Below, piece by piece: positions 8,747 to 43,256 of a stretch of DNA of 64,000 bases. Numbering within the stretch: the stretch's first letter is position 1; each line of letters starts with the position of its first letter. Origin of the DNA: Rubellimicrobium roseum (GTDB taxonomy: Bacteria; Pseudomonadota; Alphaproteobacteria; Rhodobacterales; Rhodobacteraceae); the NCBI RefSeq assembly GCF_006152145.1, contig NZ_VDFV01000003.1, positions 124,001 through 188,000 of the forward strand. Reading direction: 5' to 3'. Position numbers and translations under genes: made by a program. Under the pieces are notes generated by a model. The model was not told the origin of the DNA, searched no databases, and worked only from the letters and a program-made list of their open reading frames with translations.

Positions 8747-8798
8747 GTTAACAGATCCTCACACCACCGAACGGTCCTCCCCCGCTTCGCGCAACACC
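8747..8798 (-). repeat. 52-bp GTTAAC/AACACC element, copy A
   Basis: One of four ungapped copies. The plus strand begins GTTAAC and ends AACACC, with CACCGAACGGT in the middle (columns 19-29). It lies 11 nt past the pyrE stop, with the AACACC end facing pyrE. On the GTTAAC side a short hairpin follows (GCCAG-a-CTGGC, 8728-8738). Strand is given in the direction of the adjacent gene. Function unknown. Confidence 0.8.
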
Positions 8799-8809
8799 CC
8801 CCTGGAGCG

Positions 8810-9478
8810 TCAGGCCGGGGCCCAGCCCTCCGGGTCGTGGAGGTAGGCCTCGACGGCGGCCAGCGTCTCGGCGTCGAAGGCCTCCCGGCGGCGGGCCTCG
8901 GCCAGCACATCCCACCAGGTGCAGAGCGAATGGAGCCGCACGCCCTCGGCGGCGAGGCGCTCGTGCATCTCGGGGAAGATGCCATAGGCGAAGATGACCG
9001 CCGTATGGGCGCAGGTGGCCCCGGTGTCGCGGATGGCCTGCACGAAGCTGAGCTTGGAGCCGCCGTCGGTGGCGAGGTCCTCGACGAGGAGGACCCGCTG
9101 GCCCTCGGTCATCACGCCCTCGATCCGGGCGTTCCTGCCGTAGCCCTTGGGCTTCTTGCGCACGTAGGTCATGGGCAGCGCCATGCGGTCCGCGACCATG
9201 GCGGCGAAGGGGATGCCCGCCGTTTCGCCGCCCGCGATGTTGTCGAAGGCCTCCAGCCCCGCCTCGCGCATCACCGTCACGCACAGGAAGTCCATCAGCG
9301 CCGACCGGATGCGGGGGAAGGAGATCAGGCGGCGGCAGTCGATGTAGGTGGGCGCCTTGCGGCCCGAGGCGTGGGTGAAGGGCTCGCGCGCGTTGAAGTG
9401 GACGGCCTTGGCCTCCAGCAGCATGGCGGCGGACAGGCGCGCGATCTCCTCGCGCGGGGGGAAGCTCGTGGGGATCAT
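8810..9478 (-). CDS. pyrE: Orotate phosphoribosyltransferase
   Basis: A 222-residue PRTase that makes orotidine monophosphate from orotate and PRPP in pyrimidine synthesis. The PRPP-binding motif is [13 protein letters not shown]. Other family features are [17 protein letters not shown] near the N-terminus, the flexible-loop lysines in [17 protein letters not shown], and [16 protein letters not shown]. In related genomes pyrE is expected close to pyrC. Here the two are separated by a small HExxH protein gene and a divergent regulator gene. A 52-bp repeat copy follows the stop. Confidence 0.95.
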
Positions 9479-9544
9479 GGCGGCTCCGGGGCGTTGGGTC
9501 GGGGCCGCATATGACGGATGGACGGGGGACGGAAGGCCCCGGCG

Positions 9545-10027
9545 TCAGCAGATCGAATAGGCGTGGGCCCAGAAGGTGCGGTTGGGGATCGGGTCGTCGG
9601 TCCGCGTCTCGCGCAGGTAGCGGCCGCCCAGAAGATAGGCTTCGGTTTCGCCATGCGCGGGGCAGGGCCAGGTCGCGGCGGCGCCGGTCTGCCACTGGAT
9701 GTGGTGGATCAGCTCGTGGAGCACGATCTCGCGGAAGATCGGGTTCTCGGCCGGGTCCTCCCAGTGCTCGGCGTCCGTGACGTACTCGGGTGAGAGGACG
9801 TAGATCGTGCCGTGGGCGCCGTCCTCGGCCGAGTAGAGCGCGAGGAGGCGGTCGTCCACGCCGTCCGAAGGCAGGAGCTGCGGCGCGGCCGAGTAGTATT
9901 CGCGCGTCAGGTCCGGGGGGCGCATGAGGACGAGGGTGGGGCGGGGCAGGTCGGCGGTCTCGTAGTCGGTCTCGGCCTCGATCCAGGCCAGGAGGGCGTC
10001 GAGGAGCAGGTCCATGGGGGGTTCCAT
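9545..10027 (-). CDS. Small HExxH metal-dependent protein
   Basis: A 160-residue soluble protein with a zincin-type HELIHHIQ motif at residues 104-111, preceded by the hydrophobic stretch NPIFREIVL. A later acidic AHGETEAYLLGGRYL could supply the third metal ligand (the Glu of GETEAY), as in gluzincin-like folds. There is no signal peptide. The chain is shorter than usual secreted metalloproteases. Start at 10027; an in-frame ATG at 10015 is an alternative, and neither has a clear ribosome site. The substrate is unknown. It is divergent from the winged-helix regulator. Confidence 0.75.
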   Translation of the reverse strand: MEPPMDLLLDALLAWIEAETDYETADLPRPTLVLMRPPDLTREYYSAAPQLLPSDGVDDRLLALYSAEDGAHGTIYVLSPEYVTDAEHWEDPAENPIFREIVLHELIHHIQWQTGAAATWPCPAHGETEAYLLGGRYLRETRTDDPIPNRTFWAHAYSIC

Positions 10028-10090
10028 CGCAGGCAGCTTGGCGGAACTACGACCAAGGTCGGTGTTTCGTCCCCACCGAGGGCAAAAATT

Positions 10091-10121
10091 TTGACGAGAC
10101 TGTTCTGAATTTGGATACAAT
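10091..10121 (+). promoter_or_regulatory. Candidate promoter for the winged-helix/TPR gene
   Basis: TTGACG at 10091-10096 and TACAAT at 10116-10121 resemble -35 and -10 boxes with a 19-nt spacer, which is long. The local sequence is A/T-rich against a G/C-rich background. It would give a leader of about 15 nt before the ATG at 10142. Confidence 0.4.
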
Positions 10122-10141
10122 CGCCGCCGGGGGGTCGTGTG

Positions 10142-11737
10142 ATGGACCTGGGTGGCGTTGTTCTGGACGAAAGGGGAAACCTGCGGAACGCGGCGGGGGC
10201 CCCGGTGCCGCTGCGGGCGCAGTCGCTGAAGGTCCTGCTGGTGCTGGCCGGGCGGCCGGGCCAGGTGGTGAGCAAGGACGAGATCTTCGCGGCCGTCTGG
10301 GGCGCGGTCCATGTCACCGACGACAGCCTGACCCAGTGCGTGGCCGATATCCGCCGCGCCATCGGCGACCGGGGGCACAGGGTGGTCCAGACGGTGCCCA
10401 AGCGCGGCTACCGGCTGGTGCCGCCCAGCGTTCCCGATCCCGAGCCGCTCCAGCCGCCTCCCGCGCCGGAGGCGGCCCCGGTCGTCGCCGCGTCGGCCCC
10501 GAAGCGGGCCCGCCCGGCGTGGATCGGAGGGGCGGCTCTGGCGGCGCTGGTGGCGGTCGGGACACTGGGCTGGTCCTGGGGCGGTCGCGGCGGCACGCTG
10601 CCCACGCTGGCCGTGATGCCCTTCGAGGACCTGTCGGGCGACCCGCGCTGGGAGCGGCTGGGGCGTGGGATCGCGGCGGACCTGGCCGCCGACCTGTCGC
10701 GGGGCGGCAACGTCGTGGTCGCCGCGCCCGAGGCCGAGGCGCGCTACCGCCTGGACGGCACGCTGACGGCCGAAGCGGGTGCGCTGCGCATCGTGGCCCG
10801 CCTGACGGACGAGGCCGAGGGGCGGGTGCTGTGGTCGGATCGGTGGACGGGTCCGGCCGAGAGCGTCTTCGCCGTGCAGGACGAGATCCTGCGCCGGGTG
10901 GGCGGGCAGATGGACGGGACCTGGACCGGGCTGATCGCGCGGGCGGAGATGGTGGGCGGGGGGACGCGCGACCTGGGGGCCTACGAGCTGTACCTCAGGG
11001 GCGCGGAGGCCAAGCACCGCTTCACCCCGGAAGGCTATGTCGAGGCCGTGGGCCATTTCCGGCAGGCGATCGCCGCCGATCCGGGCTTCGTGAAGGCTCA
11101 TGTCTCGCTGGCCATCGTGCTCATGTTCCAGGTCCTGGGCGCCCCCACCGAGGCCGAGGCGCGGGCGCTGCTCGACGAGGCGCGGGTGGCCGCCGAGCGG
11201 GCGGTGGCGCTCGACCCCGAGGACCCGGACGCCCTGGTGCAGCTTGCCTCGGCGCGCGTGGGGCAGGGGCGGCGGGCCGAGGCGCGGGCGGCGCTGGAGC
11301 GGGCGGTGGAGCTGGCGCCCAACAACCCCGACGTGCTGACCGTCGCCGCCTGGACCTACCCCTGGGCGGACGGGCCGGGGCTCGACTGGGCGCGGCGGGC
11401 GATGGAGCTGCATCCCGCTCCGCCGGGCTACTTCCAGGTCGGGCTCGCGCTCGCGGCGCTGCTCGCGGGCGAGCTGGAGCTGGCGCGGAGGGCCGCCCGC
11501 GCCGCGCCCCCCGTCCCCGAGGCCCTGGCCGTCCGGGGCGCGGCCGAGGCGCTGGCGGGCGACCTCGTGGCGAGCCGGGCGGCCTTTGCGGACTTCGCCG
11601 CGCAGACCAGCTTCCGCCGGCTGGGGCTCTATTACGGCACGCCGGATTTCGTGGCCGACCCGGCCTGGGCGCCGTTCGTGGAAGGCGCGCGGCGCGCGGG
11701 GGTCCTTTCGGGCCGAAGGGGGCTGGCCTGGAACTAG
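10142..11737 (+). CDS. Membrane-anchored winged-helix regulator with TPR domain
   Basis: A 531-residue ToxR/CadC-like protein. Residues 1-93 form an OmpR-type winged helix ([21 protein letters not shown], then [17 protein letters not shown] and VPKRGYRLV). A Pro/Ala linker and one membrane segment (about 126-146) follow. Next comes the [16 protein letters not shown] module found ahead of TPRs in such proteins, then a C-terminal TPR array (for example [20 protein letters not shown]). The cytoplasmic DNA-binding domain and periplasmic TPRs fit a one-component sensor. The target is not evident. A GTG at 10139 is an alternative start. Its stop overlaps the convergent pyrC stop by 4 nt. Confidence 0.85.
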
Positions 11738-12786
11738 GACCCGACCTGCCAGTGGAGCGGGAAGCCCGGATCGAAGACGGTCACGGGGCCCTCGTCGGTG
11801 GCGACGGCGGCGGGCGGAGACCAGGGCTCGCCCCGGACGAGCGTGATCCGCTCCTCGTTGGGAGGCAGGCCGTAGAAGCGCGGGCCGTTGAGCGAGGCGA
11901 AGGCTTCGAGCTGGTCGAGCGCCTCGGCGGCCTCGAAGACCTCGGCCAGGATGGACATCGTCACCGGCGCGGTGAAGCAGCCCGCGCAGCCGCAGGGCTG
12001 GAGCTTGGCCGCGTCGAGGTGCGGCGCGGAGTCGGTGCCCAGGAAGAAGCGCCTGTCGCCCGACACGGCCGCCTGCACCAGCGCGATGCGGTGCGTCTCG
12101 CGCTTGGCGACGGGAAGGCAGTAGTAGTGCGGCCGGATGCCCCCCGCGAGGATGGCGTTGCGGTTGATGACGAGGTGGTGGGTGGTGATCGTCGCCGCCA
12201 CGTTCTTGGGCTGGTCGCGCACGAAGTCCACGCCGTCCTGGGTGGTGACGTGTTCGAGCACGAGGCGCAGGTCGGGGATGCGGCGGCGGAGGGGCTTGAG
12301 CACCCGGTCGATGAACACCGCCTCGCGGTCGAAGATGTCGACCTCGGAGTCCGTCACCTCGCCGTGCAGGCAGAGCGGCATCCCGATCTCGGCCATGCGC
12401 TCCAGCACCGGGCGCACCTTGTCGAGATCGCGGACGCCGGCGTGGCTGTTGGTCGTGGCGCCCGCCGGATAGAGCTTCACCGCATGGGCGACGCCCGACA
12501 GGAAGGCATGGGCCACGTCGTCGGGGTCGGTCGCCTCGGTGAGATAGAGCGTCATCAGCGGCTCGAACCGCAGGCCTTCGGGCAGCGCGGCGAGGATGCG
12601 GTCGCGGTAGGCGGCGGCCTGCGCGGCGGTGACCACCGGGGGCACGAGGTTCGGCATGACGATGGCGCGGGCGAAGTCGCGCGCCGTGTGCGGCAGCACG
12701 GCCCGGAGCATGGCCCCATCGCGCAGGTGCAGGTGCCAGTCGTCGGGGCGGCGGAGGGTGAGGCGGGTCCAGGAGCGGTGCGGCAT
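11734..12786 (-). CDS. pyrC: Dihydroorotase (class II)
   Basis: A 350-residue zinc amidohydrolase that closes carbamoyl aspartate to dihydroorotate. The first metal-binding motif DWHLHLRDG is near residue 17. The carboxylated lysine should be that of AVKLYPAG. Histidine ligands follow in CLHGEV and VLEHVTT, and the catalytic aspartate in [17 protein letters not shown] stretch precedes the end, as in many proteobacterial PyrC proteins. The length is normal. It is convergent with the winged-helix/TPR gene, sharing 4 nt at the stops. Confidence 0.96.
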
Positions 12787-12929
12787 GATGGGTTCGGGCC
12801 TAGCACGAGGCGGGGAAAGGGACCAGATGGGGCGATCCTGCCGCCACGCCGCCACGGAAGGGCCGTTAGGCCGCGGGCGGCGTCTGCGGCATGATGGGGC
12901 CGAATCCCCCTGCGATGGGTGCCCCCGTG

Positions 12930-13538
12930 ATGCGCGTGCTTTCGGCCCTGGCCGCCCTTCTCGTTCCCGCCGCCCCGGCGGCGGCGGACTGCCTCGGGGG
13001 CGATCATCTGGGGCGCGGCGTGGTCGTGACCTTCGAGAACGGCGACCGCACCACCCTGCGGCGCCTGGCCGATGGGGCCATCGAGGTCGAGGAGCGGCGC
13101 GCGGGCGAGGGAGCGGCGATGCGCTACCGGTCGGCCTTTGGCGTCTACTTCTTCGAGGAGGTGGAGCTGGACGAGGACGGGGCGCCCGTGCCCGGCACGC
13201 GGCTCGAGGTGCTCTATCCGCAGGACCCGCTGACCCTGCCGCCACCCGCGCCCGGGATCGTCTGGTCGGGACGCACCACCAACCGCTTCGCCGACGGGCA
13301 GGAGCGCGCCGAGATCGCCACCGTCCGCTTCCTCGAAGGAGAGCCGCTGGAGATCGGGGGCTGCTCCTACCGGACGGTCGCGGCCGAGCTGCGCTACGAC
13401 TGGGGCAAGGCCGGGGGGCTGACGTTGCGCTACGATTACCTGATCGACCTGGGGGCCGCGGTGATCCGCTCGAACCGGTTCGACGGGAGCGCGCTGCGGG
13501 AGACGCGTCCGGTGCGGCTGGCGCCGGCGCGGAAATAG
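12930..13538 (+). CDS. Exported protein of unknown function
   Basis: A 202-residue protein with a signal peptide ([19 protein letters not shown]) and a mature N-terminus near DCLGG. The mature part is acidic and beta-rich. It has two cysteines (in DCLGG and GGCSYR) that could form a disulfide in the periplasm. I chose the ATG at 12930 because it places the signal peptide at the N-terminus; upstream in-frame ATGs give a poor leader. I recognise no family. It is followed 29 nt later by a methyltransferase gene on the same strand. Confidence 0.72.
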
Positions 13539-13567
13539 GGCGGGGACCACAGCCGGGGGGAGGACGC

Positions 13568-14422
13568 GTGGCCGGGGACGGGAACGAGGAACAGGCGGGG
13601 ATCTGGAACGGCGACGTGGGGCAGCGCTGGCTCCAGTACGGCACGGCGCTGGAGGCGATGCTGGCCGAGGTCTCGGCCCGGCTTCTGGCGCAGGCCGGGC
13701 TCGGGCCGGGGATGCAGGTGCTGGAGGTGGGCTGCGGCGCCGGGGCGCTGGCGCTGCAGATCGGGCGGCGGGTCGGGCCGCGGGGCTTCGTGCTGGGGCT
13801 CGACATCTCGGAGCCGCTGCTGGCCGAGGCCGAGGCGCGGCGGCGCGTGGCGGGGCTGCCGCAGGTGGGCTTCCAGCTTGAGGACGCGCAGGACGCGCGG
13901 CTGCCGCCCGGGACCTTCGACCTCGTGATGTCGCAGTTCGGGGCGATGTTCTTCGCGGACCCGGTCGCAGCCTTCGCCAACCTGCGCGGCGCGCTCAGGC
14001 ACGGGGGACGGGTCCTGCTGATGGGCTGGGGGCCGGTGGGGCAGAATCCCTTCTTCGCGCTCGCCCGCGCGGCGGCGGTGCGGCAGCTGGGGCCGCCCGA
14101 GGCCACGGGGCCGGAGGACGCGCCGGGGCCCTTCGCCTTCGCCGACCGGGCGCGGGTCGAGGCGCGGCTCGCGCACGCGGGCTTCGAGGAGGTGGGCTCC
14201 GAGGCGCTGCCGGTGGACCTCTGGCCTCCGGGCGGGCCGGCCGAGGCGGCGGTGCTGGCGACCGGCCTGGGGCCGGCGGCGGCGCGCCTGCGCGAAGCGG
14301 GCGCGGGCGAGGAGGAGCGCGCGGCGATCCGGGCCGAGCTGGAGGCCGCCTACGCGCCCTTCGCGACCGCGCGGGGGCTGCGGGTGCCGGCCCTCGTCCA
14401 CGTCTTCGAGGCCCGGCGGTAG
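13568..14422 (+). CDS. Class I SAM-dependent methyltransferase
   Basis: A 284-residue cytoplasmic methyltransferase. Motif I is [16 protein letters not shown], followed by the acidic [10 protein letters not shown], then [16 protein letters not shown] and [12 protein letters not shown]. The pattern matches the UbiE/Methyltransf_11 group. [16 protein letters not shown] at the N-terminus is common in such enzymes, where a trailing [21 protein letters not shown] follows. The substrate is unknown. The GTG start at 13568 has a GGGGAGGA ribosome site just upstream. It is convergent with gcdH, with 4 nt between the stops. Confidence 0.85.
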
Positions 14423-14426
14423 GGGG

Positions 14427-15662
<1,236 letters not shown>

Positions 15663-16437: not shown

Positions 16438-18651
16438 ATGACGTCACGACCCATCCGCGCCACCACGGCGCTGGTCGCCACGCTGGCGCTGCTGGTGCCG
16501 CAAGGCGGCCTCGTCTCCGAGGCCCAGGCGCAGGAAACGGTGCGGCTGTGCCGCGACCAGTCCGAGCCCCCCTGTCCGGACGGCGAGCCCCGCCGCGGCA
16601 GCCGCTTCATCGTGAACGAGGATGGCAGCCTCAGCCGCGCCAACGGTGGCGGCGGCGAGGAGGGGCGCGCCCGGGAGGGAGGCGGCGGCGAGGGGGAGCG
16701 CGCCCGGGAGGAGGGCGGCGGCGAGGGCCGCGAAGAGGAGCGCCGGGCCCGTCGCGAGGAGCGCCGGGCCGAGGAGCAGGCGCGCGAGGAAGAGCGCCGG
16801 GCCGAGGAGCAGGCCCGCGAAGAGGAGCGCCGGTCCGAGGAGCGCACCCGCGAGGAGCGGCGCGCGGCCGAGGAGCAGGAGCGCGAAGAGGGCCGCCGGG
16901 CCGAGGAGCGGGCCCGCGAGGAGGAGCGCGCGGCGGAAGAAGAGGCTCGGGCGCAGGCCGAGGCCGAAGAGGAAGCGCGGCGGCAGGCCGAAGAGGAGGC
17001 GCGGGCCGAGGAGGAATCGCGGGCCGCCGCGGAGGCCGAGGAGCAGGCCCGCGCGGAGGCCGAGGAAGAGGCTCGGGCCGAGGAAGAGGCGCGTGCCCAG
17101 GCCGAAGCCGAAGCCGAGGAGGAGGCCCGCGCGGCTGCGGAGGCCGAAGAGGAGGCCCGTGCCGAGGAAGAGGCGCGGGCCCAGGCCGAAGCCGAAGCCG
17201 AGGAGGAGGCCCGCGCAGCTGCGGAGGCTGAAGAGCAGGCCCGTGCCGAGGAAGAGGCGCGTGCCCAGGCCGAAGACGAGGCCCGCGCCGAAGCCGAAGC
17301 CGAGGCGCAGGCCGAGGAAGGAACCCGGGCCCAGCGCCGCGAGGAGCGCCGCGCCCGCGCCCGCGCCGAGCGCGAGGCCGCGCAGGAGGCTCTGGCCGAG
17401 GAGGAGGCGCGCGCCCGCGCCGAGGCAGAGGCGGAGGCCGAGGCCGACACGGAGGCCCGCGCCGCCCGCCGGGCCGAGGCCCGCGCTCGCGCCCGCGCCG
17501 AGGCCGACGCCGAGGCGGCCGCCGCTCTGGAGGATGCCGCTCAGCGGGAGGCCGAAGCCATCGAGGCCCGCGAGGCGGCCGAGGCGGAGCTGGAGGAGAC
17601 GCGCCAGCGGCTCGAGGCGGCGCTGGCCGCCGAGGCGGGCGCTGCCGAGGAGGAGGCCAACGTCGAGGAGCTGAGCATCGGCGAGGCGGATGTCCGCACC
17701 GCGACCGAGGACTTCGCCACCGACGTGAGCGGCGACGACGAGGACGACGGTGGCCTGAGCACCCTGGAGCGCGCGCTCCTTCTGGGGCTGGGCGCCGCGG
17801 CGGTGGGCTCGTTCCTCAACAACGGCGACGAGGTGGTGACGAACTCGGGCGACCGGGTGGTGACGCGCAATCCGACCACGGGCGGCTACGACGTCTACCG
17901 CAACGACGACGCGATCCTCTACCAGCCGGGCTCGGACGTGCGGACCGAGACCTTCTCGGACGGGTCCACCCGGACCTTCGTGGACCGCGGCGACGGCACG
18001 CAGGTCGTGACCATCCGGGACGCGAACGGGGTCGTCCTGCGCCGGGCGCGGGTGCTGCCCGACGGCACTCAGGTCCCGCTGATCGACGACCTGCGCGAGG
18101 TCCCGCCCGTGGACGTGCGGGCGCTGATCGACGAGGCCCCCGCGCCGGTGGTGGTGGAATCGGCCGGGCTCGACGTGGCCGAGCTGCGGGCGCTGCTGGA
18201 GGAGGAGCCGGAATACGACCCCGGCCGCGACTTCTCGCTGCGGCAGGTGCGCGAGATCTCGGCGGTGCGGAACCTGATGCCGGCCGTGGACCTGGAGGTG
18301 AACTTCCCCAGCGGATCGGCGGCCATTCCGGGGACGCAGCTGTCGAACCTCGTGGAGATGGGCATCCTGATCGAGGACGCGCTGGACGAGAATCCCGGCG
18401 AGGTCTTCCTGATCGAGGGCCACACCGACGCGGTGGGCGGCGACGCGCTCAACCTCGCTCTGTCGGACCGGCGGGCCGAGTCGGTCGCGCTGGCGCTGAC
18501 CGAGAACTTCGATATCCCGCCCGAGAACCTGGTGGTGCAGGGCTACGGCGAGGAGTTCCTGAAGGTGCGGACCGAGTCCGACGAGGAGGAGAACCGCCGC
18601 GCCACGATCCGCCGGATCACGCCGCTGCTGGACGTGGCCTCGGCCGAGTAG
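16438..18651 (+). CDS. OmpA-family protein with long charged coiled coil
   Basis: A 737-residue envelope protein. A signal peptide ends near EAQAQ. Residues about 70-410 are almost entirely Glu, Ala and Arg ([10 protein letters not shown]-type repeats) and should form a very long helix or coiled coil. A short hydrophobic stretch [18 protein letters not shown] lies near residue 440. The C-terminal ~125 residues are an OmpA-like peptidoglycan-binding domain with [12 protein letters not shown] and [15 protein letters not shown]. The GGAGG ribosome site is 8 nt upstream. It probably anchors the envelope to peptidoglycan across a long spacer. The coiled coil contains an exact-period DNA tandem repeat. 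Confidence 0.88.
17077..17274 (+). repeat. 84-bp in-frame tandem repeat, about 2.4 copies
   Basis: Units at 17077-17160 and 17161-17244 are nearly identical, and a third, partial unit runs 17245-17274. The period is 84 bp, or 28 codons, which equals four heptads. Each unit encodes [20 protein letters not shown] followed by AEAEEEAR or AEAEEQAR. Only a handful of bases differ between the first two units, so the duplication looks recent. Confidence 0.85.
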
Positions 18652-21140: not shown

Positions 21141-21173
21141 GGCGTGGTCATGCGAGAAGGCTCGCAGGATGGG

Positions 21174-21225
21174 GTTAACGAAGTCTGACAGCACCGAACG
21201 GTCGTACCACTGAGAAGTTAACACC
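21174..21225 (-). repeat. 52-bp GTTAAC/AACACC element, copy D
   Basis: Ungapped match to the other three copies, with GTTAAC at 21174-21179 and AACACC at 21220-21225; the CACCGAACGGT centre is intact. It lies between convergent stops, 33 nt past the P450 stop and 23 nt past the lrp-type stop, with the AACACC end facing the lrp-type gene. On the GTTAAC side is a hairpin TGCGAG-aagg-CTCGCA (21151-21166). In columns 38-46 it departs from the other three copies and carries a second GTTAAC. Confidence 0.78.
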
Positions 21226-31881: not shown

Positions 31882-31933
31882 GGTGTTGCGCGAAACGCCG
31901 GACCACCGCGCGGTGGTGTCAGGTTTCGTTAAC
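31882..31933 (+). repeat. 52-bp GTTAAC/AACACC element, copy C
   Basis: This copy is inverted relative to the other three on the plus strand but has the same orientation relative to its gene: the GGTGTT end (complement of AACACC) lies 12 nt past the tgt stop and GTTAAC is at 31928-31933. Its centre is the longest palindrome of the four, ACCACCGCGCGGTGGT (16 bp, perfect). Ungapped alignment with the others. Confidence 0.8.
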
Positions 31934-32041
31934 TTCCCGCTGGCAGCCTTGTCGCAGAGTGGCCGGAGAAGGGAGATCGCCATGAGGTGCCGACAGCGTG
32001 ATCGGGGGGCCAGCCGTCCCCGGCCTGCCGGGGCGGGCAGG

Positions 32042-32145: not shown

Positions 32146-34554
32146 ATGACCGATCCCCTCGCGACCAGCCATCCCGTCCTTCCGCTGCGCGACATCGTGG
32201 TCTTCCCGCACATGATCGTGCCCCTCTTCGTGGGCCGCGAGAAGTCCGTCCGCGCGCTGGAGGCCGTCATGGCCGAGGACAAGCAGATCCTGCTGTCCTC
32301 GCAGATGGATCCGGGCGTCGATGACCCCGGAACCGACGGCATCTACAAGGCGGGCGTGCTGGCCAACGTGCTGCAGCTCCTCAAGCTGCCCGACGGCACC
32401 GTGAAGGTGCTCGTCGAGGGCAAGAGCCGCGTCCGCATCACCGAGTTCGTGACGAACGAGCGCTACTTCGAGGCCCGCGCCGAGTCGCTCGACGAGGCCA
32501 TGGGCGACCGGGAGGTCGTGCAGGCCCTGTCCCGCTCCGTGGGCCAGGAGTTCGAGAAGTACGCCAAGATCAAGAAGAACATCCCCGAGGAGGCCATCGC
32601 CGCCGTCACCGACGCGACGGACCCGGCGAAGCTGTCGGACCTGATCGCCGGGCATCTCGGCATCGACGTCAAGCAGAAGCAGGACCTGCTGGAGACGCTC
32701 GTCGTCTCCGAGCGGCTGGAGAAGGTCTTCGGCCTGATGCAGGGCGAGATCTCGGTCCTGCAGGTCGAGAAGAAGATCAAGACCCGCGTCAAGTCGCAGA
32801 TGGAGAAGACCCAGCGCGAGTACTACCTGAACGAGCAGATGAAGGCGATCCAGCGCGAGCTGGGCGATGGCGACGAAGGCCAGAACGAGATCGCCGAGCT
32901 CGAGAAGCGGATCGCGGACACCGATCTGTCCAAGGAAGCGCGCGACAAGGCCGAGGGCGAGCTGAAGAAGCTCAAGTCCATGTCGCCGATGTCGGCCGAG
33001 GCGACGGTGGTGCGCAACTACCTCGACTGGCTGCTGGGCGTGCCGTGGGGCCTCAAGTCCAAGGTCTCCAAGGACATCAACAAGGCCGAGGCGATCCTGA
33101 ACGCCGACCACTACGGCCTGGAGAAGGTCAAGGAGCGCATCGTCGAGTATCTTGCCGTGCAGGCGCGGTCCGCGAAGCTCAAGGGCCCGATCCTGTGCCT
33201 CGTCGGTCCTCCCGGCGTGGGCAAGACCTCGCTCGGCAAGTCGGTGGCCAAGGCCACGGGGCGTGAGTTCATCCGCATCTCGCTCGGCGGCGTCCGGGAC
33301 GAGTCGGAGATCCGCGGCCACCGCCGGACCTATATCGGCTCCATGCCCGGCAAGATCATCCAGGCTCTGAAAAAGGCCAAGACCACGAACCCGCTCATCC
33401 TGCTCGACGAGATCGACAAGATGGGACAGGACTTCCGTGGCGACCCGGCCTCGGCGATGCTGGAGGTGCTGGACCCCGAGCAGAACGGGACCTTCGTCGA
33501 CCACTACCTCGAGGTGGAGTACGACCTGTCCAACGTGATGTTCATCACGACGGCCAACTCGTACAACATGCCGGGGCCTCTGCTTGACCGGATGGAGATC
33601 ATCTCCCTCGCCGGCTACACCGAGGACGAGAAGCGCGAGATCGCCAAGCAGCACCTGCTGCCCAAGGTCATGAAGAACCATGGCCTCAAGGTCGGCGAGT
33701 TCGAGATGACCGATGGGGCGCTCAACGAGATGGTCCGCACCTACACCCGCGAGGCGGGCGTGCGGAATCTGGAGCGCGAGATCGCCAAGGTGGCGCGGAA
33801 GTCCACGACCAAGCTCGTGAAGAAGGAAGCGACCAAGGTCGTCGTGACCGAGGAGAACCTCGAGGAGTTCCTGGGCGTCAAGAAGTTCCGCTATGGTCTC
33901 GCGGAGAAGGAGGACCAGATCGGCGTCGTCACGGGCCTGGCCTGGACGAGTGTCGGCGGGGATCTCCTGTCCATCGAGGCGCTTCGCCTGCCCGGCAAGG
34001 GCCGGATGAAGACGACCGGCAAGCTCGGCGACGTGATGAAGGAGTCGATCGAGGCGGCGGCGTCCTATGTGCGGAGCATCAGCCCGCAGATCGGGGTGAA
34101 GCCTCCGAAGTTCGACAAGATGGACATCCACGTCCACGTCCCCGAGGGCGCGACGCCCAAGGACGGCCCTTCGGCGGGCCTCGCCATGGTGACGTCCATC
34201 GTTTCGGTGCTGACGCAGATCCCCGTCCGCAAGGACATCGCCATGACCGGCGAGGTCACGCTGCGGGGCAACGCGCTGGCCATCGGCGGCCTGAAGGAGA
34301 AGCTGCTCGCCGCGCTGCGCGGCGGCATCAAGACGGTGCTGATCCCGGCCGAGAACGAGCGCGACCTGCCGGAGATCCCGGAGAACGTGAAGCAGGGGCT
34401 GGAGATCATCCCCGTGTCGCACGTCTCGGAGGTGCTGAAGCACGCGCTGGTGCGCCAGCCCGAGCCCGTGGAATGGGACGAGGAAGCCGAGGAGGCGGCG
34501 GCGCTGGCCAAGGCCAAGGCGGTGGACGAGGCCTCGGGCGCTGTCGCGCACTGA
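32146..34554 (+). CDS. lon: ATP-dependent protease Lon
   Basis: An 802-residue AAA+ serine protease that degrades misfolded and regulatory proteins. In order: the LON substrate-binding domain ([20 protein letters not shown]), a helical region with [14 protein letters not shown], the AAA+ module with Walker [10 protein letters not shown] near residue 354 and Walker [10 protein letters not shown], and the protease domain. The catalytic dyad is Ser676 (DGPSAG) and Lys719 (GGLKEKL). The length and dyad spacing match E. coli Lon. It ends at a strong terminator. Confidence 0.97.
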
Positions 34555-36433: not shown

Positions 36434-37183
36434 GTGACGGTGCCCCTGTTCTCGGTCGTGATCCCTTTCCGCAACGCCGCAAGCACTCTGCCGGCCACGT
36501 TGGCCTCTCTTCGCAGGCAGACGCTGGAGGATTGGGAAGCGCTGGTGGTCAACGACGGCTCCACGGACCGCGGGGCGGCTCTGGTCGTGGATCTGGCCCG
36601 TCAGGACCCGCGCCTGCGGCTCATCGACGAAGGTGGCGTTGCGGCGCGGGGCGCTGCGGCCACGCGGAATCTGGGAATCCAGGCGTCGCGGGGGCGCTAC
36701 GTGGCCTTTCTCGACGCCGACGACCTCTGGCGGCCCACGAAGCTGGAGCGACAGGCCGAGGCCTTCGCGGCGGGCGCGCCCATGGTCTTTTCCTCCTACC
36801 AGCGGATGGACGGGGATGGGCGGGCGCTGGGCGTGGTCCCGGCGGCCGCACGGGTGGCCTGGGAGGACGCGCTGGGGGGCAATCCCATCGGCTGCCTGAC
36901 CGCCGCCTATGACACGGACCGCTTCGGGCGGGCCGAGATGCCGCTTCTGCCCATGCACGAGGATTATGCCTTCTGGCTGGCGCTGCTGCGGGACGGAGCG
37001 GTGGCGTGGGGCCTGCCGGAGGTGCTGGCCGACTACCGCGTGCGGCCGGGCTCGGTTTCGGCCAACAAGGTCCGGGGCGCGGCGGCCGTATGGCGCATCC
37101 TGGGGGCGGAAGGCGTCCGGCCCGCCGAGCGGGTCCTGCACTTCTCGCGCTACGTGCGGACGGGGCTGGCGCGGCGGCTCTAG
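36434..37183 (+). CDS. Glycosyltransferase family 2
   Basis: A 249-residue GT-A fold transferase. The N-terminal strand is LFSVVIPFRNAASTLPATL, the nucleotide site VVNDGSTDRG and the metal-binding motif FLDADDLW (D-x-D). The acceptor region has PLLPMHEDYAFWLALL, with the catalytic base expected in HEDY. The GTG start at 36434 is fixed by GGAGG at 36422-36426; the open frame continues upstream through the tRNA, which is not coding. It is convergent with a second GT2 gene, sharing 4 nt. Likely role: sugar transfer to a surface polysaccharide. Confidence 0.9.
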   Translation: MTVPLFSVVIPFRNAASTLPATLASLRRQTLEDWEALVVNDGSTDRGAALVVDLARQDPRLRLIDEGGVAARGAAATRNLGIQASRGRYVAFLDADDLWRPTKLERQAEAFAAGAPMVFSSYQRMDGDGRALGVVPAAARVAWEDALGGNPIGCLTAAYDTDRFGRAEMPLLPMHEDYAFWLALLRDGAVAWGLPEVLADYRVRPGSVSANKVRGAAAVWRILGAEGVRPAERVLHFSRYVRTGLARRL

Positions 37184-38046
37184 CGTCGTTCCGGCGTTTG
37201 TCGCAGGACAAGGAGCCGGACCAGTTCCTCGATCTCCACCCCCCAGAGGCGCAGGCGCACGGCGCTCGCCGTCAGCCGCCAGCCCAAGGGATGGGACGAC
37301 ACAACATAGGCCGCGATCTCGCGCAGGGGCGGGCAAAGGCTTCGGACCGTCCAGAACACCCGGCGGCGGAGCGGGCCGGCGGCGACCTGCCCGCCTTTGA
37401 TGCGGCGGGCCTTGGTCACGAGCTCCTGGCGGCTCGCGCGGGCGGGGTGGTCGACGACCGCGTCGGGGACGTAACGAAGCGGGTGACCCTGCGTGCGCGC
37501 ACGGCGGCAGAACTCGGCGTCGCCACCGGAAAGGCGGGTGGCGTCGAAGCCCCCCAGCGCCGCGAAGACCCCGCGCGGGAGCGACAGGTTGGCCGTGGCC
37601 GCATACCCGTGCCGGATGAAGGATTTCTGAGGGATTCCTCGCACCGTGTCGAAGATCTCCCAAGGGTTGGGCCGGGGGCCGGGACGGATCTCGACGGGGC
37701 CGGCGAGAAGCTCGGGCACGTCGCGGCGGGCGGCCATGAGCCCGGCGAGCCAGCCGGGAGAGGGCAGGCAGTCGGAATCCGTGAAAGCGAGGACCTCTCC
37801 GCGAGCCTCGGCCGCGCCGGCGTTGCGGGCGGCGTAGGAGCCCTTCTGCGGGCAATGGACAAGCCGGGTGCGCTGGACCGGCGACCGGAGCGGCCCGGGC
37901 CAGGGCTCGGGGCCGTTGTCGACGAGGAGGAGCTCGAAGTCGGTCCAGGTCTGGGCGGCCAGCGCCCCGAGCAGGAGGGGCACGCGGTCCCAGTCGGCGT
38001 AGACCGGGACGATGACCGAGACAGCGGGGGGCACTGGGTCACTCAT
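37180..38046 (-). CDS. Glycosyltransferase family 2
   Basis: A 288-residue GT-A glycosyltransferase. VSVIVPVYADWDRVPLLL opens the fold, then LLLVDNGPEPWPG, and the metal motif is LAFTDSDCLPSPGWL (D-S-D). AALGGFDATRLSGGDAEFCRRARTQGH carries the acceptor-side GGD/E residues. I start at MSDPVPPAVSV (38046); upstream in-frame sequence is shadow of the next gene. A C-terminal hydrophobic/basic stretch (LRLWGVEIEELVRLLVLR) may associate with the membrane. It overlaps the end of the upstream GT4 gene by 8 nt, so both are coupled. Confidence 0.9.
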   Translation of the reverse strand: MSDPVPPAVSVIVPVYADWDRVPLLLGALAAQTWTDFELLLVDNGPEPWPGPLRSPVQRTRLVHCPQKGSYAARNAGAAEARGEVLAFTDSDCLPSPGWLAGLMAARRDVPELLAGPVEIRPGPRPNPWEIFDTVRGIPQKSFIRHGYAATANLSLPRGVFAALGGFDATRLSGGDAEFCRRARTQGHPLRYVPDAVVDHPARASRQELVTKARRIKGGQVAAGPLRRRVFWTVRSLCPPLREIAAYVVSSHPLGWRLTASAVRLRLWGVEIEELVRLLVLRQTPERR

Positions 38047-39178
38047 GAAGTCCCGCGACCTCCAGATAGCGCCGGGCGGCACGGTCGGAGCCGTAGCGCA
38101 GCGCGGCGTCGCGACGGGCGGCGAGGTCGCCGGGAGCGTCGAGCGCCGAGAGCATCGCCTCGGCCAGCCTCGCGGGATCGCCAGGGGGCACCAGTGGACC
38201 GAGACGTCCGCCGTCGAGGATCTCGGAGGGTCCCGAGGGGCAATCGGTCGAGACCACCGCGCAACCGCAGCCCATCGCCTCGATGAGCACGGTGGGCAGG
38301 CCCTCCCAGCGGGAAGACAGGGCGAAGAGGTCCGCGCGGGCGAGGTAGGGGAGGGCGTCCGGCACATGCCCGGGCAGGTCCAGCGCCTCGGTCAGCCCGA
38401 GGTCGGCGCCCAGGGCGGCGAGGGCCGGACGGTCCTCGCCCTCGCCCAGGATGACGAGCCGCGCGCCGGGCCGGGCCTCGCGGAGTCGGGCGAAGGCCCG
38501 CAGGAGCGTCGGGAAGTCCTTCTGCGCCGTCAGGCGACCCGCGCCGAGGATCACGGGCGCCCCGGAGTCGCGCAAGCCGGGCGCGCGGGCGGCCAGCCAG
38601 GGGTGGGGGCAGGGGTCCTCGCGCCTCAGGAGGCGGGCAGGGGTCCAGACCGGGTTGTCGACGACCTCGACCAGGCCGGGCGGCAGGGCGAGCCGGGCTT
38701 CCAGGTCTTGCGCCACCCCGGCCGAGACGGCGACGCGGGCATCGGGCCGGCGGATCAGCCGGTCCGCCAGGTGTCCGGCGAGACGGTCCATGCGCGAGGG
38801 GACGCCGATGCGTTGGGTGCTGCCGTGCGTGTGGTAGGTCCAGACGAGGCGGGTGCGGCCCCGCAGCCCCGCCCGGTGAAGCCCCGCCAGCATGAGGAGA
38901 TTGACGTAGTCGCGGGCCGAGATCAGGACGGCGGGCCGCGCCTCGCCCAGGTAGCGGACGAGGGCCGGCAGGGCCGAGCGCGCCCGGCGACCCAAGCGGA
39001 CGGGCCGAAGGCCTTGGGGCACGGCTCGGGTCTCAGCCTCGTCGAGGAGGAGGAGGTCCACGGGGTGGCCGCGCTCGCGCAGCGCCTCGCCGAGGTTCAG
39101 CATGACGACCCCGATGCCGCCGCCACCGATCCCGCCGGGGGCGAGGCAGATGCGGGGGCGGTCCTCGGGGGACGTCAT
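38039..39178 (-). CDS. Glycosyltransferase family 4
   Basis: A 379-residue GT-B transferase. The N-terminal glycine loop is GGIGGGGIGVVMLNLGEAL. The C-terminal nucleotide-sugar domain has VILGAGRLTAQKDFPTLLRAF and the E-x7-E motif region FALSSRWEGLPTVLIEAMGCGCAVVSTDCPSGPSEIL. Such enzymes add sugars such as galactose or mannose to lipid-linked glycans. The start at 39178 directly precedes the glycine loop. A 94-codon Arg/Pro-rich frame ends in a 4-nt overlap with this ATG but does not look like a protein. Confidence 0.92.
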   Translation of the reverse strand: MTSPEDRPRICLAPGGIGGGGIGVVMLNLGEALRERGHPVDLLLLDEAETRAVPQGLRPVRLGRRARSALPALVRYLGEARPAVLISARDYVNLLMLAGLHRAGLRGRTRLVWTYHTHGSTQRIGVPSRMDRLAGHLADRLIRRPDARVAVSAGVAQDLEARLALPPGLVEVVDNPVWTPARLLRREDPCPHPWLAARAPGLRDSGAPVILGAGRLTAQKDFPTLLRAFARLREARPGARLVILGEGEDRPALAALGADLGLTEALDLPGHVPDALPYLARADLFALSSRWEGLPTVLIEAMGCGCAVVSTDCPSGPSEILDGGRLGPLVPPGDPARLAEAMLSALDAPGDLAARRDAALRYGSDRAARRYLEVAGLHE

Positions 39179-40417
39179 CGGGCGACTCCCTGCTCCGCGA
39201 GATCCCGGCGTGCAGGCGTCCGCACCGGTCGGCCGAGCCGGAGGGCATGGGTCCGGGCCGGAACGGGACGTTCGCGCTCCCGCGCAGGGCCGAGGGCCCG
39301 AGGCCGCGCCGAACGCGGCCGTGCGCGTAGGAGGCGCTCCGCGGGCCGGTGGGCGACAGGCGGGATGGAGCGCAACGGCGCCGGTGCAGTCGTCGTGTGG
39401 GTCAAGGCCGAGCGTCCTGGGTCCGCTCTTGGAACGGACCGTTTCCGCCGCCGAGCCATCGCAGAGCCTGATCCATTGCTAGCCGCGCGTTGTGGCAGGG
39501 CCTGCCCCGCGGGCCTTGCAGGAGGTGGAGGGCGACCACATGGGATTGGCCAGTGTCTCGGAGGGTTTGAGTGGCCTTGTGGTGCGGCGCGGAAACGAGG
39601 GCGCGGGAATGGCGGTCGACCGCCACGGCGTTCCTGGTGTGCACGAGCTCGCCGCGGGCGTGGACCTCGGAGGATTTGCGGCCGAGCGGGATTTGAAGGA
39701 GCGGCAGAGCGCCGATCGGGAGCGGGTGGAATTGGTCGCCACGAGTGACTTGGCCGCTCCGTCGGGGGCGGCGGCCGTCATTCCCGATTGCGGCGCGGAG
39801 CCGGCCAAGCCGGACGTTGGAGCCGAGCGGGGCCGCCAAGCTCTCGGGGTAGCGGACATGCGGGATGTGGACGTTCATCTTGGGCATCAGGCGGCACGAT
39901 CCGTGACGGGGGCCAGTCGGCGCGGGGCGGGCGAGATCATGGGGCCGTGGCTCCCGGCAGGTTGGGTCCCGGTTCGGATGCGCTGCCGCCGATGCCTGGG
40001 GCGGGGCCGCGCGATCACGTTCGAGGTCTTACTCGCGCGGTCGGTGAGGCGCAACCGCGGCGGGTGACGTCACCGTGCAGGGCCTTTGGCCCAGCTCTCG
40101 CAACGGGATCGCCAGTGCTGTCCTCCAGGCGTCCTGCCGCCGACGAAGTGGACCTGACTTGTTCACTCCCGCCGTTTGATGACCCGGAGCGGCGACGTCC
40201 CCTCTTCGCATCCCATCTTTAGCGAGGCGGGGGCGTGGTGGTTTCCGCAAGGCTGGGGTCCGATGGCCGGGGCCGTGAAGCTCACGCCCGCCACACAGGA
40301 CGATGGGCGGCTTGGGCGCGTCCGGTCTCCTGCACGGTCCGCCGTAGCGCAAACGGCACGGCGCGCTATGATCATCCGCGCGGCGGGGGCTCAGGGGCGG
40401 ACGTGCGGGAGGGTGGC
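39179..40417. other. 1.24-kb region with no supported gene
   Basis: Long frames run on both strands: 39492-40067 plus (acidic, starting MAGPAPRALQEVEGDHMG) and 39402-39887 minus (His/Arg-rich). Neither shows a domain, a ribosome site or a composition that clearly marks coding. The region has more A/T-containing patches than its neighbours. It separates the glycosyltransferase group from the sensor kinase and may be decayed accessory DNA. I found no terminal inverted repeats or transposase motif. Confidence 0.55.
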
Positions 40418-41470
40418 GTGACGGCGATGGGGCAGGCGGCGCGCCCGGGAAGGCTCGGGAGCCTTCTGCTGGACCGGTTCGGAGGCTGGGCGACGGCGCG
40501 GCGCAGCGTGGCCTTTCGCTGGGGCCTGGCGACGGTCGCCTTCGGGCTGGCGACGGCGACGCGGTTCATCCTGGACCCCCATCTTCCGCAGGGCTTTCCC
40601 TTCCTGACCTTCTTTCCGGCCATCACGCTGACGGCGTTTCTCGCCGGGACGGTGCCGGGCGTGGTGGTGATGATCCTGTCGGGGGCCGTGGCCTGGTACT
40701 GGTTCATCCCGCCTGTCGGCAGCTTCCAACTGGGCAGCGGCGCCACGCTGGCGATGGGGCTCTATGTCTTTGTCACCGGGACGGAGATCGGGCTGATCTG
40801 GCTGATGCGGCGGGCGGTGGAGCGGGCGGCGGAGGCCGAGGCCGCCGCGCGCGCGATGGCGCAAAGCCGGAGCCTGATGTTCGCGGAGCTTCAGCATCGC
40901 GTCTCGAACAACCTCGCCGTGGTGGGCTCTCTCCTGGCGCTGCAGCGGCGGGGCGTGGCGGACCCGGCGGCGCAGCGGGCGCTCGACGAGGCGGTGGCGC
41001 GGCTCGACGTGGTGGCGCGGCTGAGCCGGCTGCTTCACGACCCCGAGGCGCAGCAGATCGACTTTGGCGCCTTCCTGCGCGCCATGGTGCCCGACGCGGT
41101 GGCCGCCGCCGGAGCGGGCGACCGGGTGGCGGTCCGGGTGGTGGCCGAGCCGGTGGTGGTGCCGGCCGACCGGGCCGTGCCGCTGGGGCTGGTGGCGACC
41201 GAGCTTCTGGCCAACGCGCTGGAGCACGGGGTGCAGACGGGCGCGCGGGGGACGATCCATGTCGCGCTGGAGCAGAGGGGCGGGGTGGCGCGGCTCACGG
41301 TGCGCGATGACGGGCCGGGGCTGCCCGAAGGCTTCGACGTCGCCGGCGCCCGCAGCCTGGGCCTGAGCATCGCGCGGCAGTTCGCGCAGCAAATCGGTGG
41401 CGTCCTGTCGATGTCGTCCGAGGGGGGTACGCTGTCCTGCCTCGAGATGCCCTTGGGCGAGAGGGCCTGA
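40418..41470 (+). CDS. Membrane sensor histidine kinase (HisKA_2 type)
   Basis: A 350-residue kinase. Three or four membrane segments lie at about residues 30-135 in a KdpD-like DUF4118 sensor region (LPQGFPFLTFFPAITLTAFLAG, AWYWFIPPVGSFQLG). The phospho-acceptor helix is LMFAELQHRVSNNLAVVGSLLALQ. The ATPase domain has ELLANALEHG (N-box), VRDDGPGLP (G1) and GLSIARQFAQQIGG. This class usually phosphorylates PhyR-like or single-domain regulators; no response regulator gene is adjacent. The GTG at 40418 has GGAGG 5 nt upstream; an ATG at 40427 is possible. Confidence 0.88.
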   Translation: MTAMGQAARPGRLGSLLLDRFGGWATARRSVAFRWGLATVAFGLATATRFILDPHLPQGFPFLTFFPAITLTAFLAGTVPGVVVMILSGAVAWYWFIPPVGSFQLGSGATLAMGLYVFVTGTEIGLIWLMRRAVERAAEAEAAARAMAQSRSLMFAELQHRVSNNLAVVGSLLALQRRGVADPAAQRALDEAVARLDVVARLSRLLHDPEAQQIDFGAFLRAMVPDAVAAAGAGDRVAVRVVAEPVVVPADRAVPLGLVATELLANALEHGVQTGARGTIHVALEQRGGVARLTVRDDGPGLPEGFDVAGARSLGLSIARQFAQQIGGVLSMSSEGGTLSCLEMPLGERA

Positions 41471-41561
41471 GGGCGCACAGGGGCTGTGCGAGGGGGCGTT
41501 TGTCCGTGGCGCGCGGGGCGCTTACCTTGGGGTCAGTCCTCCCGCCGCGAAAGGTGGCCCC

Positions 41562-42494
41562 ATGAGCTGGAATCCTTCCCTCGATCCCGTCGTTCCCGAA
41601 GGCGCCGCCATCGACGCCATCGAAACGGTCATCGTGCCGCGCGCCCGCGACCTGGGCGGATTCGAGGTGCGCCGCGCGCTGCCCTCGGCCAAGCGGCAGA
41701 TGGTCGGGCCCTTCATCTTCTTCGACGAGATGGGCCCGGCCGAGTTCCTGACGGGCAAGGGGCTCGACGTGCGGCCGCATCCTCATATCGGGCTCGCGAC
41801 CGTCACTTACCTGTTCCGTGGGCGCATCCACCACCGCGACTCCCTGGGCACCGACCAGTGGATCGAGGCGGGTGCGGTGAACCTGATGACGGCCGGGCAG
41901 GGGATCACGCATTCGGAGCGCATGGACCAGGGGGCGCTGCCGCAGAGCATGTGGGGGCTCCAGACCTGGCTGGCGCTGCCCCTGGACAAGGAGGACGGGG
42001 GGGCGGCCTTCGGGCACACGCGGGCGGAGGAGCTGCCGCTGCTGGACGGGGAGGGCAAGACGGTGCGGCTGATCCTGGGTCGGGCCTGGGGCGCCGAGTC
42101 GCCGGTCGTGACGCCGTCCGAGACCTTCTACGCCGACGTGACGCTGGCGCCGGGGGCGCAGGTGCCGCTGCCCGCCGAGCAGGAGGACCGGGGGGCCTAT
42201 GTCCTGGGCGGCAGCGTCGAGGTCGCGGGCGAGCGGTTCGACGCGGGGCGGATGCTGGTGTTCCGGCCGGGCGACGCGCTGGCGCTGCGGGCGGGGCCCG
42301 AGGGGGCGCGGCTTGTCATGCTGGGGGGCGCGACGCTGGAAGGGCCGCGGCACATCTGGTGGAACTTCGTCGCCTCGTCGAAGGAGCGGATCGAGGCGGC
42401 CAAGGAGGCCTGGCGGCAGGGGGACTGGCGCGAGGGGCGCTTCGCGCTGCCGCCGGGGGATGACGCAGAGTACATCCCGCTGCCGGACAAGTAG
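41562..42494 (+). CDS. Pirin family protein
   Basis: A 310-residue bicupin protein. The metal-binding cupin motif is RPHPHIGLATVTYLFRG with the later histidine and glutamate in IHHRDSLG and TAGQGITHSER. The C-terminal half is the pirin-C domain (GRMLVFRPGDALALRAGPEGARLVMLGG). Pirins are iron-binding; some oxidise quercetin, others bind redox or metabolic partners. Which applies here cannot be told. An AAGGTGG ribosome site precedes the ATG. It lies 91 nt after the sensor kinase and might be cotranscribed. Confidence 0.92.
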   Translation: MSWNPSLDPVVPEGAAIDAIETVIVPRARDLGGFEVRRALPSAKRQMVGPFIFFDEMGPAEFLTGKGLDVRPHPHIGLATVTYLFRGRIHHRDSLGTDQWIEAGAVNLMTAGQGITHSERMDQGALPQSMWGLQTWLALPLDKEDGGAAFGHTRAEELPLLDGEGKTVRLILGRAWGAESPVVTPSETFYADVTLAPGAQVPLPAEQEDRGAYVLGGSVEVAGERFDAGRMLVFRPGDALALRAGPEGARLVMLGGATLEGPRHIWWNFVASSKERIEAAKEAWRQGDWREGRFALPPGDDAEYIPLPDK

Positions 42495-42580
42495 GCCGGG
42501 AAACCGGCTTGACGCCATCCGGCGCACCCCCTAGAAGCCCCCTTGTCCGACGCAGGCACGACAGCGTCGGCGGCAGATGC

Positions 42581-42657
42581 GCGGTTGTAGCTCAGTCGGT
42601 TAGAGTACCGGCCTGTCACGCCGGGGGTCGCGGGTTCGAGCCCCGTCAACCGCGCCA
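42581..42657 (+). tRNA. tRNA-Asp (anticodon GTC)
   Basis: 77 nt with encoded CCA. The acceptor is GCGGTTG with CAACCGC and discriminator G. The anticodon stem CCGGC/GCCGG encloses CTGTCAC, giving GTC. Its G34 is a target of the Tgt enzyme encoded at 30739-31869. Confidence 0.96.
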
Positions 42658-42676
42658 CTGCTGGACGACGATGAAC

Positions 42677-42699
42677 GGCGCCCCCTGGGGCGCCTTTTT
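42677..42699 (+). terminator. Terminator of tRNA-Asp
   Basis: GGCGCC at 42677-42682 pairs with GGCGCC at 42689-42694 (the stem extends into the C/G-rich loop) and is followed by TTTTT. It lies 19 nt past the tRNA 3' end. Confidence 0.85.
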
Positions 42700-42713
42700 C
42701 GTCTGGGGGAACC

Positions 42714-42959
42714 ATGGGCCACGGGGCAAGGCTTCTGCTGGGATTGCTGGCGCCCGTCCTGGGGGCGGTGTTGGGCGGCGGGCTTGGCATCCTGGGCGGG
42801 TTCGCCTGGACCGGGCTGGCCGGCACCTCGTCCTTCGAGGGCTATTCAGGTCATCCGATCGCCGTCTGGATGCTGGTGGGCGCGCTGATCGGGTTGATTG
42901 TCGCGCCCGTGGTCCTGTTCCGGTGGATCAGGCGTCGCGACAGGCGGGGCGGGCCTTGA
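42714..42959 (+). CDS. Small two-TM protein, 81 aa
   Basis: An 81-residue membrane protein with two hydrophobic segments (about 7-34 and 48-70) and a basic C-terminus (FRWIRRRDRRGGP), so both ends should be cytoplasmic. The first segment is Gly/Leu-rich (LGAVLGGGLGILGGFAW). I recognise no family. It begins 14 nt past the tRNA-Asp terminator, and the hydrophobic pattern is too regular for a shadow frame. No partner is evident. Confidence 0.6.
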   Translation: MGHGARLLLGLLAPVLGAVLGGGLGILGGFAWTGLAGTSSFEGYSGHPIAVWMLVGALIGLIVAPVVLFRWIRRRDRRGGP

Positions 42960-43031
42960 CGGGTCCGGGCCGTCACCGCGTGCCATCGCGGTCGCGCCCG
43001 GGGGCTGCCCGCGGGACGCCACTCCGGGCGG

Positions 43032-43064
43032 GCAGGGGGCGCGTCCACGACGCGCGGCGGCTGG
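43032..43064. repeat. 33-bp hairpin block, copy 2 (identical to 8566-8598)
   Basis: Identical over 33 bases to 8566-8598, including the perfect GCGCGTC-cac-GACGCGC hairpin. It lies 140 nt from the GTTAAC end of copy B of the 52-bp element. Confidence 0.75.
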
Positions 43065-43204
43065 GGGGTGGTCCCCAGGTGGTCTGACGGCGCGCTGCGG
43101 CGCGCCCGGGTCCCGGCAAAGAGCGGCCACGGGCGTTCCTTCCGAGAGCGGGAGAGCAGTGTCCCGCAGGCGGCCCCGTGACGCGACCACTCTGCGCGGC
43201 AGAG

Positions 43205-43256
43205 GTTAACGGTTCCCTACAGCACCGAACGGTCCTCCCCCGGTCCGCGCAACACC
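43205..43256 (-). repeat. 52-bp GTTAAC/AACACC element, copy B
   Basis: GTTAAC at 43205-43210 and AACACC at 43251-43256, with CACCGAACGGT in the centre. Ungapped alignment with the other copies; closest to copy A, with which it shares GGTCCTCCCCCG. It lies 73 nt past the stop of the oxidoreductase gene, with AACACC facing that gene. On the GTTAAC side a hairpin CTCTGC-gcg-GCAGAG (43190-43204) abuts it. Confidence 0.8.

Follow-up and report, generated by a model that had tools for sequence, protein, structure and literature searches.

A repeated intergenic element of Rubellimicrobium roseum as a candidate GafA-type promoter of gene-transfer-agent and other genes

A 64,000-nt stretch of the Rubellimicrobium roseum genome (the stretch is called the window below; the genome, G000 or the own genome, comprises 4.85 Mb in 155 contigs) contains four copies of a 52-bp intergenic element, and our sequence comparisons indicate that this element, together with about 20 nt past its GTTAAC end, is probably a GafA-type promoter/operator of gene transfer agent (GTA) genes that has spread to tens to about 100 intergenic sites per species. 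GTAs are domesticated viruses that ship host DNA between cells. With this reading, we suggest a sequence-level definition of the element by which the GTA activator would act, and an otherwise anonymous repeat becomes a guide to a putative GTA regulon. The reading also points to new candidate GTA-linked genes, namely a multi-copy structured RNA-like family and small-protein families, and the approximately 100 sites, which often keep their place yet change their sequence together, offer a natural test case for the coevolution of a regulator with its sites.

Gene-transfer-agent genes next to the element

The own genome possesses a complete GTA cluster with TerL, portal, S78 protease, capsid and GTA_TIM/Rcc01698 genes, and the element lies before the terS-like and the portal gene of this cluster, upstream of a GH108 endolysin gene accompanied by GTA_holin_3TM, and upstream of both a DUF2793 gene and a spike-base gene (NCBIfam equivalog RCAP_Rcc01079, 1.4e-30). 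The terS gene had no family match and is named by its position beside TerL, and the comparison of the own portal protein with phages gave distant matches alone, with less than 60% identity. Four genomes have a common site (own L097, G001 L231, G003 L137, G006 L220) upstream of a gene for a protein with an N-terminal helix-turn-helix and a DUF6456 domain (7.6e-53), and DUF6456 is the annotation of GafA homologues in PMC9638019. On the other side of this gafA site, G001 and G006 have a divergent gene, which in G001 encodes a DUF6477 protein (2.5e-31). In G003, a sister with few copies, the gafA site was the sole match of our first profile, which had been derived from the window copies, at E<=0.001. 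Altogether, the element was found upstream of gafA in the own genome and in 7/7 sisters. The genes next to the copies had been described as unrelated in a first-pass annotation of the window, and this holds within the window, but genome-wide the neighbours include GTA genes.

The element is present at 6/6 examined own GTA starts versus 1/60 window genes (Fisher p=7.7e-8), a count that is partly circular because the own GTA genes were noticed through their elements. The test in the sister species is not circular: a profile was built from 70 own non-GTA copies, and its score at the held-out GTA genes was compared with the scores of all other windows of each locus. The element scored above every control window at terS in 8/8 genomes, at DUF2793 in 8/8, at the lysis genes in 7/7 (a count that leaves out the cut G004 locus), and at the spike-base gene in all six genomes that possess one. 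For gafA, the result was 7/8, the eighth case being G004, in which the locus is cut and misframed and the element was seen separately.

Outside the genus, we analyzed the best 80 of 574 gafA loci in other Rhodobacteraceae. In the 600 nt that precede gafA, 66 of these 80 loci have GTGTTGC on the correct strand, at 197–319 nt, versus 3/80 on the other strand, with about 4 expected. The full spacing GTGTTGC-N15-22-CGnnCG-N11-19-[GC]TT(T)A occurred in 44/80 loci, compared with 0.2% of 3300 shuffles, and the first gap was 17 nt in 37 of the 44, N17 combined with N15 being also the commonest spacing in the own genome (60 sites). By reading, CtrA-like TTAAC-N6-GTAAC sites lie downstream of the element at gafA loci, which is the site described for gafA in PMC6363796. 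The claim that the repeat has no named counterpart agrees with our searches, and in the literature searched no paper linked GTGTTGCG to gene transfer agents; other Rhodobacteraceae, however, possess an element of the same design once, in the promoter region of gafA, and the 14-species gafA promoter alignment in PMC6363796 may display it.

Several observations weigh against this assignment. Among the 80 gafA loci, 14 have no GTGTTGC and 36 fail the full spacing, and a strict gafA-type pattern gave 38 matches in 35/120 family genomes versus 15 in the reversed control, with at most two matches per genome and two placed cases (G010, G012) that adjoin gafA. Among the genomes outside the genus, G009 is the only one in which the element was seen before other GTA genes: it precedes DUF2793, is weak at terS and is absent from the lysis genes. 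For G008, G010 and G011, the element was missing at the lysis, DUF2793 or spike genes, or these genes were not found; in the held-out test, the spike base of G008 was positive in 1/2 cases and marginal. Three spike-base paralogs within the genus (G002, G005, G007) also have no element (0/3). In the own genome, the flanking genes converge on 24 sites, and 26 further sites are opposed to tandem genes, which leaves many copies with no protein-coding gene that they could drive. Only part of these copies is accounted for by the RNA-like cassettes described below, and convergent copies such as copy 2 of the window have no obvious product. Finally, the published CtrA site may explain the GTTAAC block in part.

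Copy number, anatomy and proposed mode of action

The alignment of the four window copies without gaps, with 28 of 52 columns identical, was confirmed at the coordinates listed in Table 1. In a log-odds scan of the window, the four copies scored 70–77 bits, the next site, an overlapping register of copy 3, scored 8 bits, and the maximum in three shuffled windows was 9.1 bits. A genome search with a pattern that allowed up to 3 mismatches detected 27 copies versus 0 for the reversed control; this pattern contained one N too many, hence its matches are offset by one base. With a sequence-only profile built from all four window copies, the genome had 111 matches at E<=10, 94 of them at E<=0.001, and an iterative scan of the fetched loci resulted in 101 sites, of which 77 exceeded 50 bits and 12 remained below 30 bits, the weakest being possibly chance matches. 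A whole-genome search had been proposed as a check on the repeat, and these 101 sites show that further copies exist. All except one are intergenic, as had been claimed for the window copies; this count (100/101) relies on a home-made codon-based gene caller whose start positions are approximate. Genome counts near 100 are possibly low, as no more than about 150 candidates per genome are scored in a profile search. The own contigs C110 (both ends), C62 and C11 (ends; L060, L062) terminate within elements or cassettes. Near-identical copies probably broke the assembly there, and the true copy number may therefore exceed the count.

The informative reading direction is opposite to that of the first-pass annotation, and reads GGTGTTGCGCGAAnCGGgggaggACCGTTCGGTG...Agg...CGTTAACC. 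In this direction, the layout of the element is GGTGTTGCG-N17-CGnnCG-N15-GTTAACC-N10-A-N3-T, with the A-N3-T pair 12–16 nt past GTTAAC. Both A64 and T68 are kept in 54 of 62 non-redundant own copies and in 4/4 window copies, and the bases that vary little or not at all among 47 genus sequences include CGnnCG, TG, TTAA, A64 and T68. A sigma-70 -10 box retains an A and a T at just that distance, the A at -11 and the T at -7. The element has this pair, and its placement relative to a start site is predicted. A conserved TTGACA-like -35 box 17 nt upstream was seen neither in the own nor in the genus consensus. The 52 bp had been taken as the full unit, which proved too short: conservation extends 16–25 nt further on the GTTAAC side, and 34 of the 101 sites share longer sequence there with another site. 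A variant form, type B, in which additional GTTAAC-like blocks replace GGTGTTGCGC, accounts for 11 of the 101 own sites. In G006, eight copies (L152, L217, L218, L219, L222, L223, L224, L236) have a near-perfect palindrome GCGCAACACCACCGCGCGGTGGTGTAACGC in place of GGTGTTGCG..., with the GTTGCG block inverted and near the CGnnCG block. An integron attC-like reading of GTTAAC/AACACC was set aside by eye.

In the mechanism that we propose by analogy with what is reported for Rhodobacter capsulatus, GafA, with its N-terminal helix-turn-helix and its DUF6456 domain, would most likely bind the conserved blocks and recruit RNA polymerase, and the element would supply a -10-like box without a recognisable -35, preceded by three conserved blocks that are about two helical turns apart. 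Within the genus, the gafA-type element also heads the terS, lysis, DUF2793 and spike-base genes, and further copies, at tens to about 100 intergenic sites per species, precede a structured RNA-like family of 27–29 copies, small-protein families and ordinary genes. GafA binding, the start sites, the activity of the copies and the role of the cassettes are what we infer from these patterns. GafA has been described to bind its own promoter and that of the R. capsulatus GTA (RcGTA) around -10/-35, with the N-terminal domain binding both sides, and to be dimeric and to contact the omega subunit (PMC9638019), and in Caulobacter, GafY acts together with IHF at about 20 promoters whose -35 is degenerate (PMC11150451). 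The spaced blocks, the -10-like pair and the missing -35 of the element fit such an activator.

The closest known systems include the gafA and RcGTA promoters of R. capsulatus (PMC6363796, PMC9638019), and the element likewise lies upstream of a gafA homologue and of GTA genes. Features published for those promoters that would match are contacts of GafA around -10/-35 as well as on either side, autoregulation, and a separate CtrA site nearer the gafA start. Unlike R. capsulatus, the own genome has about 100 sites, and the R. capsulatus promoters were compared by published description. Caulobacter crescentus with its GafYZ/IHF system is similar in that a single activator acts on the GTA cluster, on the operon that encodes it and at accessory promoters whose -35 is degenerate, with about 20 GafY sites reported (PMC11150451), but there the activator consists of two separate proteins, and the copy number here is about fivefold higher.

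It is also quite possible, although not the more likely case, that GafA drives about 100 promoters, including those of the structured RNA family of 27–29 copies and of small-protein families seen only there, with sites that evolve in concert within each species. If so, the GTA activator would have become a genome-wide regulator, and the induction of gene transfer would set off an extensive host programme along with the particle genes.

Conservation across relatives and alternative explanations

The profile derived from the window copies matched all eight genus genomes, the own one included, and 0/23 others. A genus-wide profile gave 102, 53, 37, 5, 43, 102, 57 and 68 matches in the eight genomes, and one weak match each in 2/11 genomes outside the genus. 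Positions were compared by means of the flanks: for 17 of 64 sister copies, both flanks matched a single own site, with 14 own sites involved, after 13 of 77 sister loci that scored below 5 had been left out, and one sister copy, L154, matched two different own sites. In the sparse sister G003, where the check covered 11 of 29 matches, 9 of the 11 weak sites matched an own site, 7 of them on both flanks. Seven orthologous pairs of the own genome and G005 were 71% identical over the 52 bp versus 70% for non-orthologous own–G005 pairs, and paralogs within a species were 79% (own) and 82% (G005) identical. Many sites thus keep their place between species while their sequence is homogenised within species.

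These conserved positions bear on the strongest of the alternatives, which we nevertheless regard as unlikely. According to this explanation, the repeat is a dispersed mobile or repetitive element of the MITE or REP type with longer cassette forms, and its placement at GTA genes is exapted or incidental. The element resembles REP, RIME and MITE-like repeats in being short, intergenic and present in many copies with a species-specific consensus and longer cassette forms, and the cassettes, which have a sharp start at GGTGTT as read by eye and are up to 98% identical over 450–480 nt at unrelated places, would suit mobility, as would the nearly exclusive location between genes with little orientation bias. 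However, the positions shared between species, the held-out matches at the GTA genes of the sisters, and the family-wide element at gafA with the same spacing speak against it, and the search of plasmid and phage collections with one cassette detected no homologue. For the longer cassettes, mobility may nevertheless apply. Unlike such repeats, the element is tied to a defined gene set, keeps conserved positions in several species, and has no foldback within the 52 bp.

Somewhat less probable still is that the element is the regulatory site of a different factor, most notably CtrA, that GTA and non-GTA genes have in common, and that GafA does not bind directly. Alphaproteobacterial CtrA boxes contain GTTAAC half-sites, GTTAACC is such a CtrA-like half-site, and some type B copies and the terS promoters have, by reading, CtrA-box-like TTAA-N7-TTAAC pairs; furthermore, CtrA controls gafA in R. 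capsulatus (PMC6363796). Most copies, however, have no such pair but a single GTTAAC, combined with two further conserved blocks that are foreign to CtrA boxes, and GTA promoters that lost GTTAAC (ghsA-like genes, G002, G003) keep CGnnCGnTG as their most conserved block. The CtrA-like site at gafA loci is, moreover, a separate one downstream of the element.

The first-pass annotation had named four candidate functions (small RNA, 3'-UTR element, protein-binding site and short mobile repeat), and had noted that the AACACC end follows the stop of a same-sense gene, which is correct for all four window copies (11, 23, 12 and 73 nt for copies 1–4) but applies to only 56 of 96 resolved intergenic sites genome-wide. 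That the 52 bp work within the transcript of the preceding gene, be it as a small RNA, 3'-UTR or terminator element, is highly improbable and unsupported because 40 of the 96 sites do not follow a same-sense stop, RNAalifold with 62 non-redundant copies on both strands gave at most a 3-bp hairpin with almost no consensus fold and no covariation, and Rfam had no match (in the window, three tRNAs and nothing else at the gathering threshold; in 11 loci, nothing up to E=1). The small GCGA...GCAG hairpin suggested beyond GTTAAC is not borne out by these folds, and the protein-binding site is the earlier option that fits the patterns reported here.

Neighbouring genes, cassettes and small proteins

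Of the 101 own sites, 32 are in tandem with genes of the same sense, 26 in tandem with genes of opposite sense, 24 lie between convergent and 14 between divergent genes; one overlaps a called gene, and four near contig ends have no assigned context. A called same-sense gene starts within 140 nt downstream at 32 sites, at 21 of them, solo copies of the element, within 60 nt, and in 12 of these 21 cases the previous stop is at most 17 nt away from the element. This tight spacing of stop, element and start is a promoter-like packing, part of which could result simply from compact intergenic space.

The 34 sites with shared downstream sequence form three clusters, with 27, 5 and 2 members; two hits within one locus make up a fourth, which is not counted. 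The module CAGCCGCCGCGCGTCGnnnACGCGCCC occurs 29 times in the own genome versus 0 times for its reversed control, 27 times downstream of an element and twice within 70 nt of a contig end. The RNA-type cassette is found at window copies 1 and 4 and, as other own examples, at L028, L033, L045, L070, L053 and L071, and its 3' part folds into hairpins; the Rfam search of 11 loci gave no match for it. Among 26 cassette copies (25 own, one from G002), the second hairpin has 12 and the third 18 distinct arm pairs, and the arms of the second change on both sides of a similar loop; as the arms were picked for maximal pairing, paired fractions are biased upward, and some picks of the third hairpin (L035, L049, L070, L072) look non-homologous. 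Three own cassettes are not included in this count, L082 with its match inside a gene and L057 and L102 with no recognisable 3' part. RNAalifold on a plain column alignment of the cassettes found no covariation. A coding function of the common cassette was considered, and one-base indels between near-identical copies argue, by reading, against it. G006 has its own set of near-identical cassettes, which have the CTCTTT and GCGCGTCG blocks in common with those of the own genome.

The cluster of five (L039, L043, L046, L055, L089) is coding-like: directly under the element, it encodes a protein of about 119–120 amino acids that begins with MDPDALLRDP, with 67–73% identity among three of the five copies and no Pfam or NCBIfam match. 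A second small-protein type with the motif HFPDHPERP lies under the element at L048 in the own genome, at L131 in G001, and at L196, L201 and L203 in G005, and it adjoins an ileS-like gene in the own genome and in G001.

Table 1. Positions of the element copies, their -10-like hexamers and downstream cassettes in the window
Feature	Position	Strand	Remarks
Copy 1 of the element	8747..8798	-	reads GGTGTTGCG...GTTAAC on the minus strand; sequence alignment and scan
-10-like hexamer, copy 1	8731..8736	-	A and T conserved at element positions 64/68; putative promoter role
RNA-like cassette downstream of copy 1	8490..8746	-	hairpin module 8571-8597; ends approximate
Copy 2 of the element	21174..21225	-	between convergent genes, without GTTGCG
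-10-like hexamer, copy 2	21158..21163	-	putative role
Copy 3 of the element	31882..31933	+	after tgt-like gene, 212 nt before lon-like gene at 32146 (gene names by reading)
-10-like hexamer, copy 3	31944..31949	+	putative role
Copy 4 of the element	43205..43256	-	sequence alignment and scan
-10-like hexamer, copy 4	43189..43194	-	putative role
RNA-like cassette downstream of copy 4	42950..43204	-	hairpin module 43037-43063; ends approximate

Apart from the element, the window contains an open reading frame of 737 amino acids (16438-18651, plus strand) with a long Glu/Ala/Arg-rich repeat stretch at about 16.65–17.66 kb.

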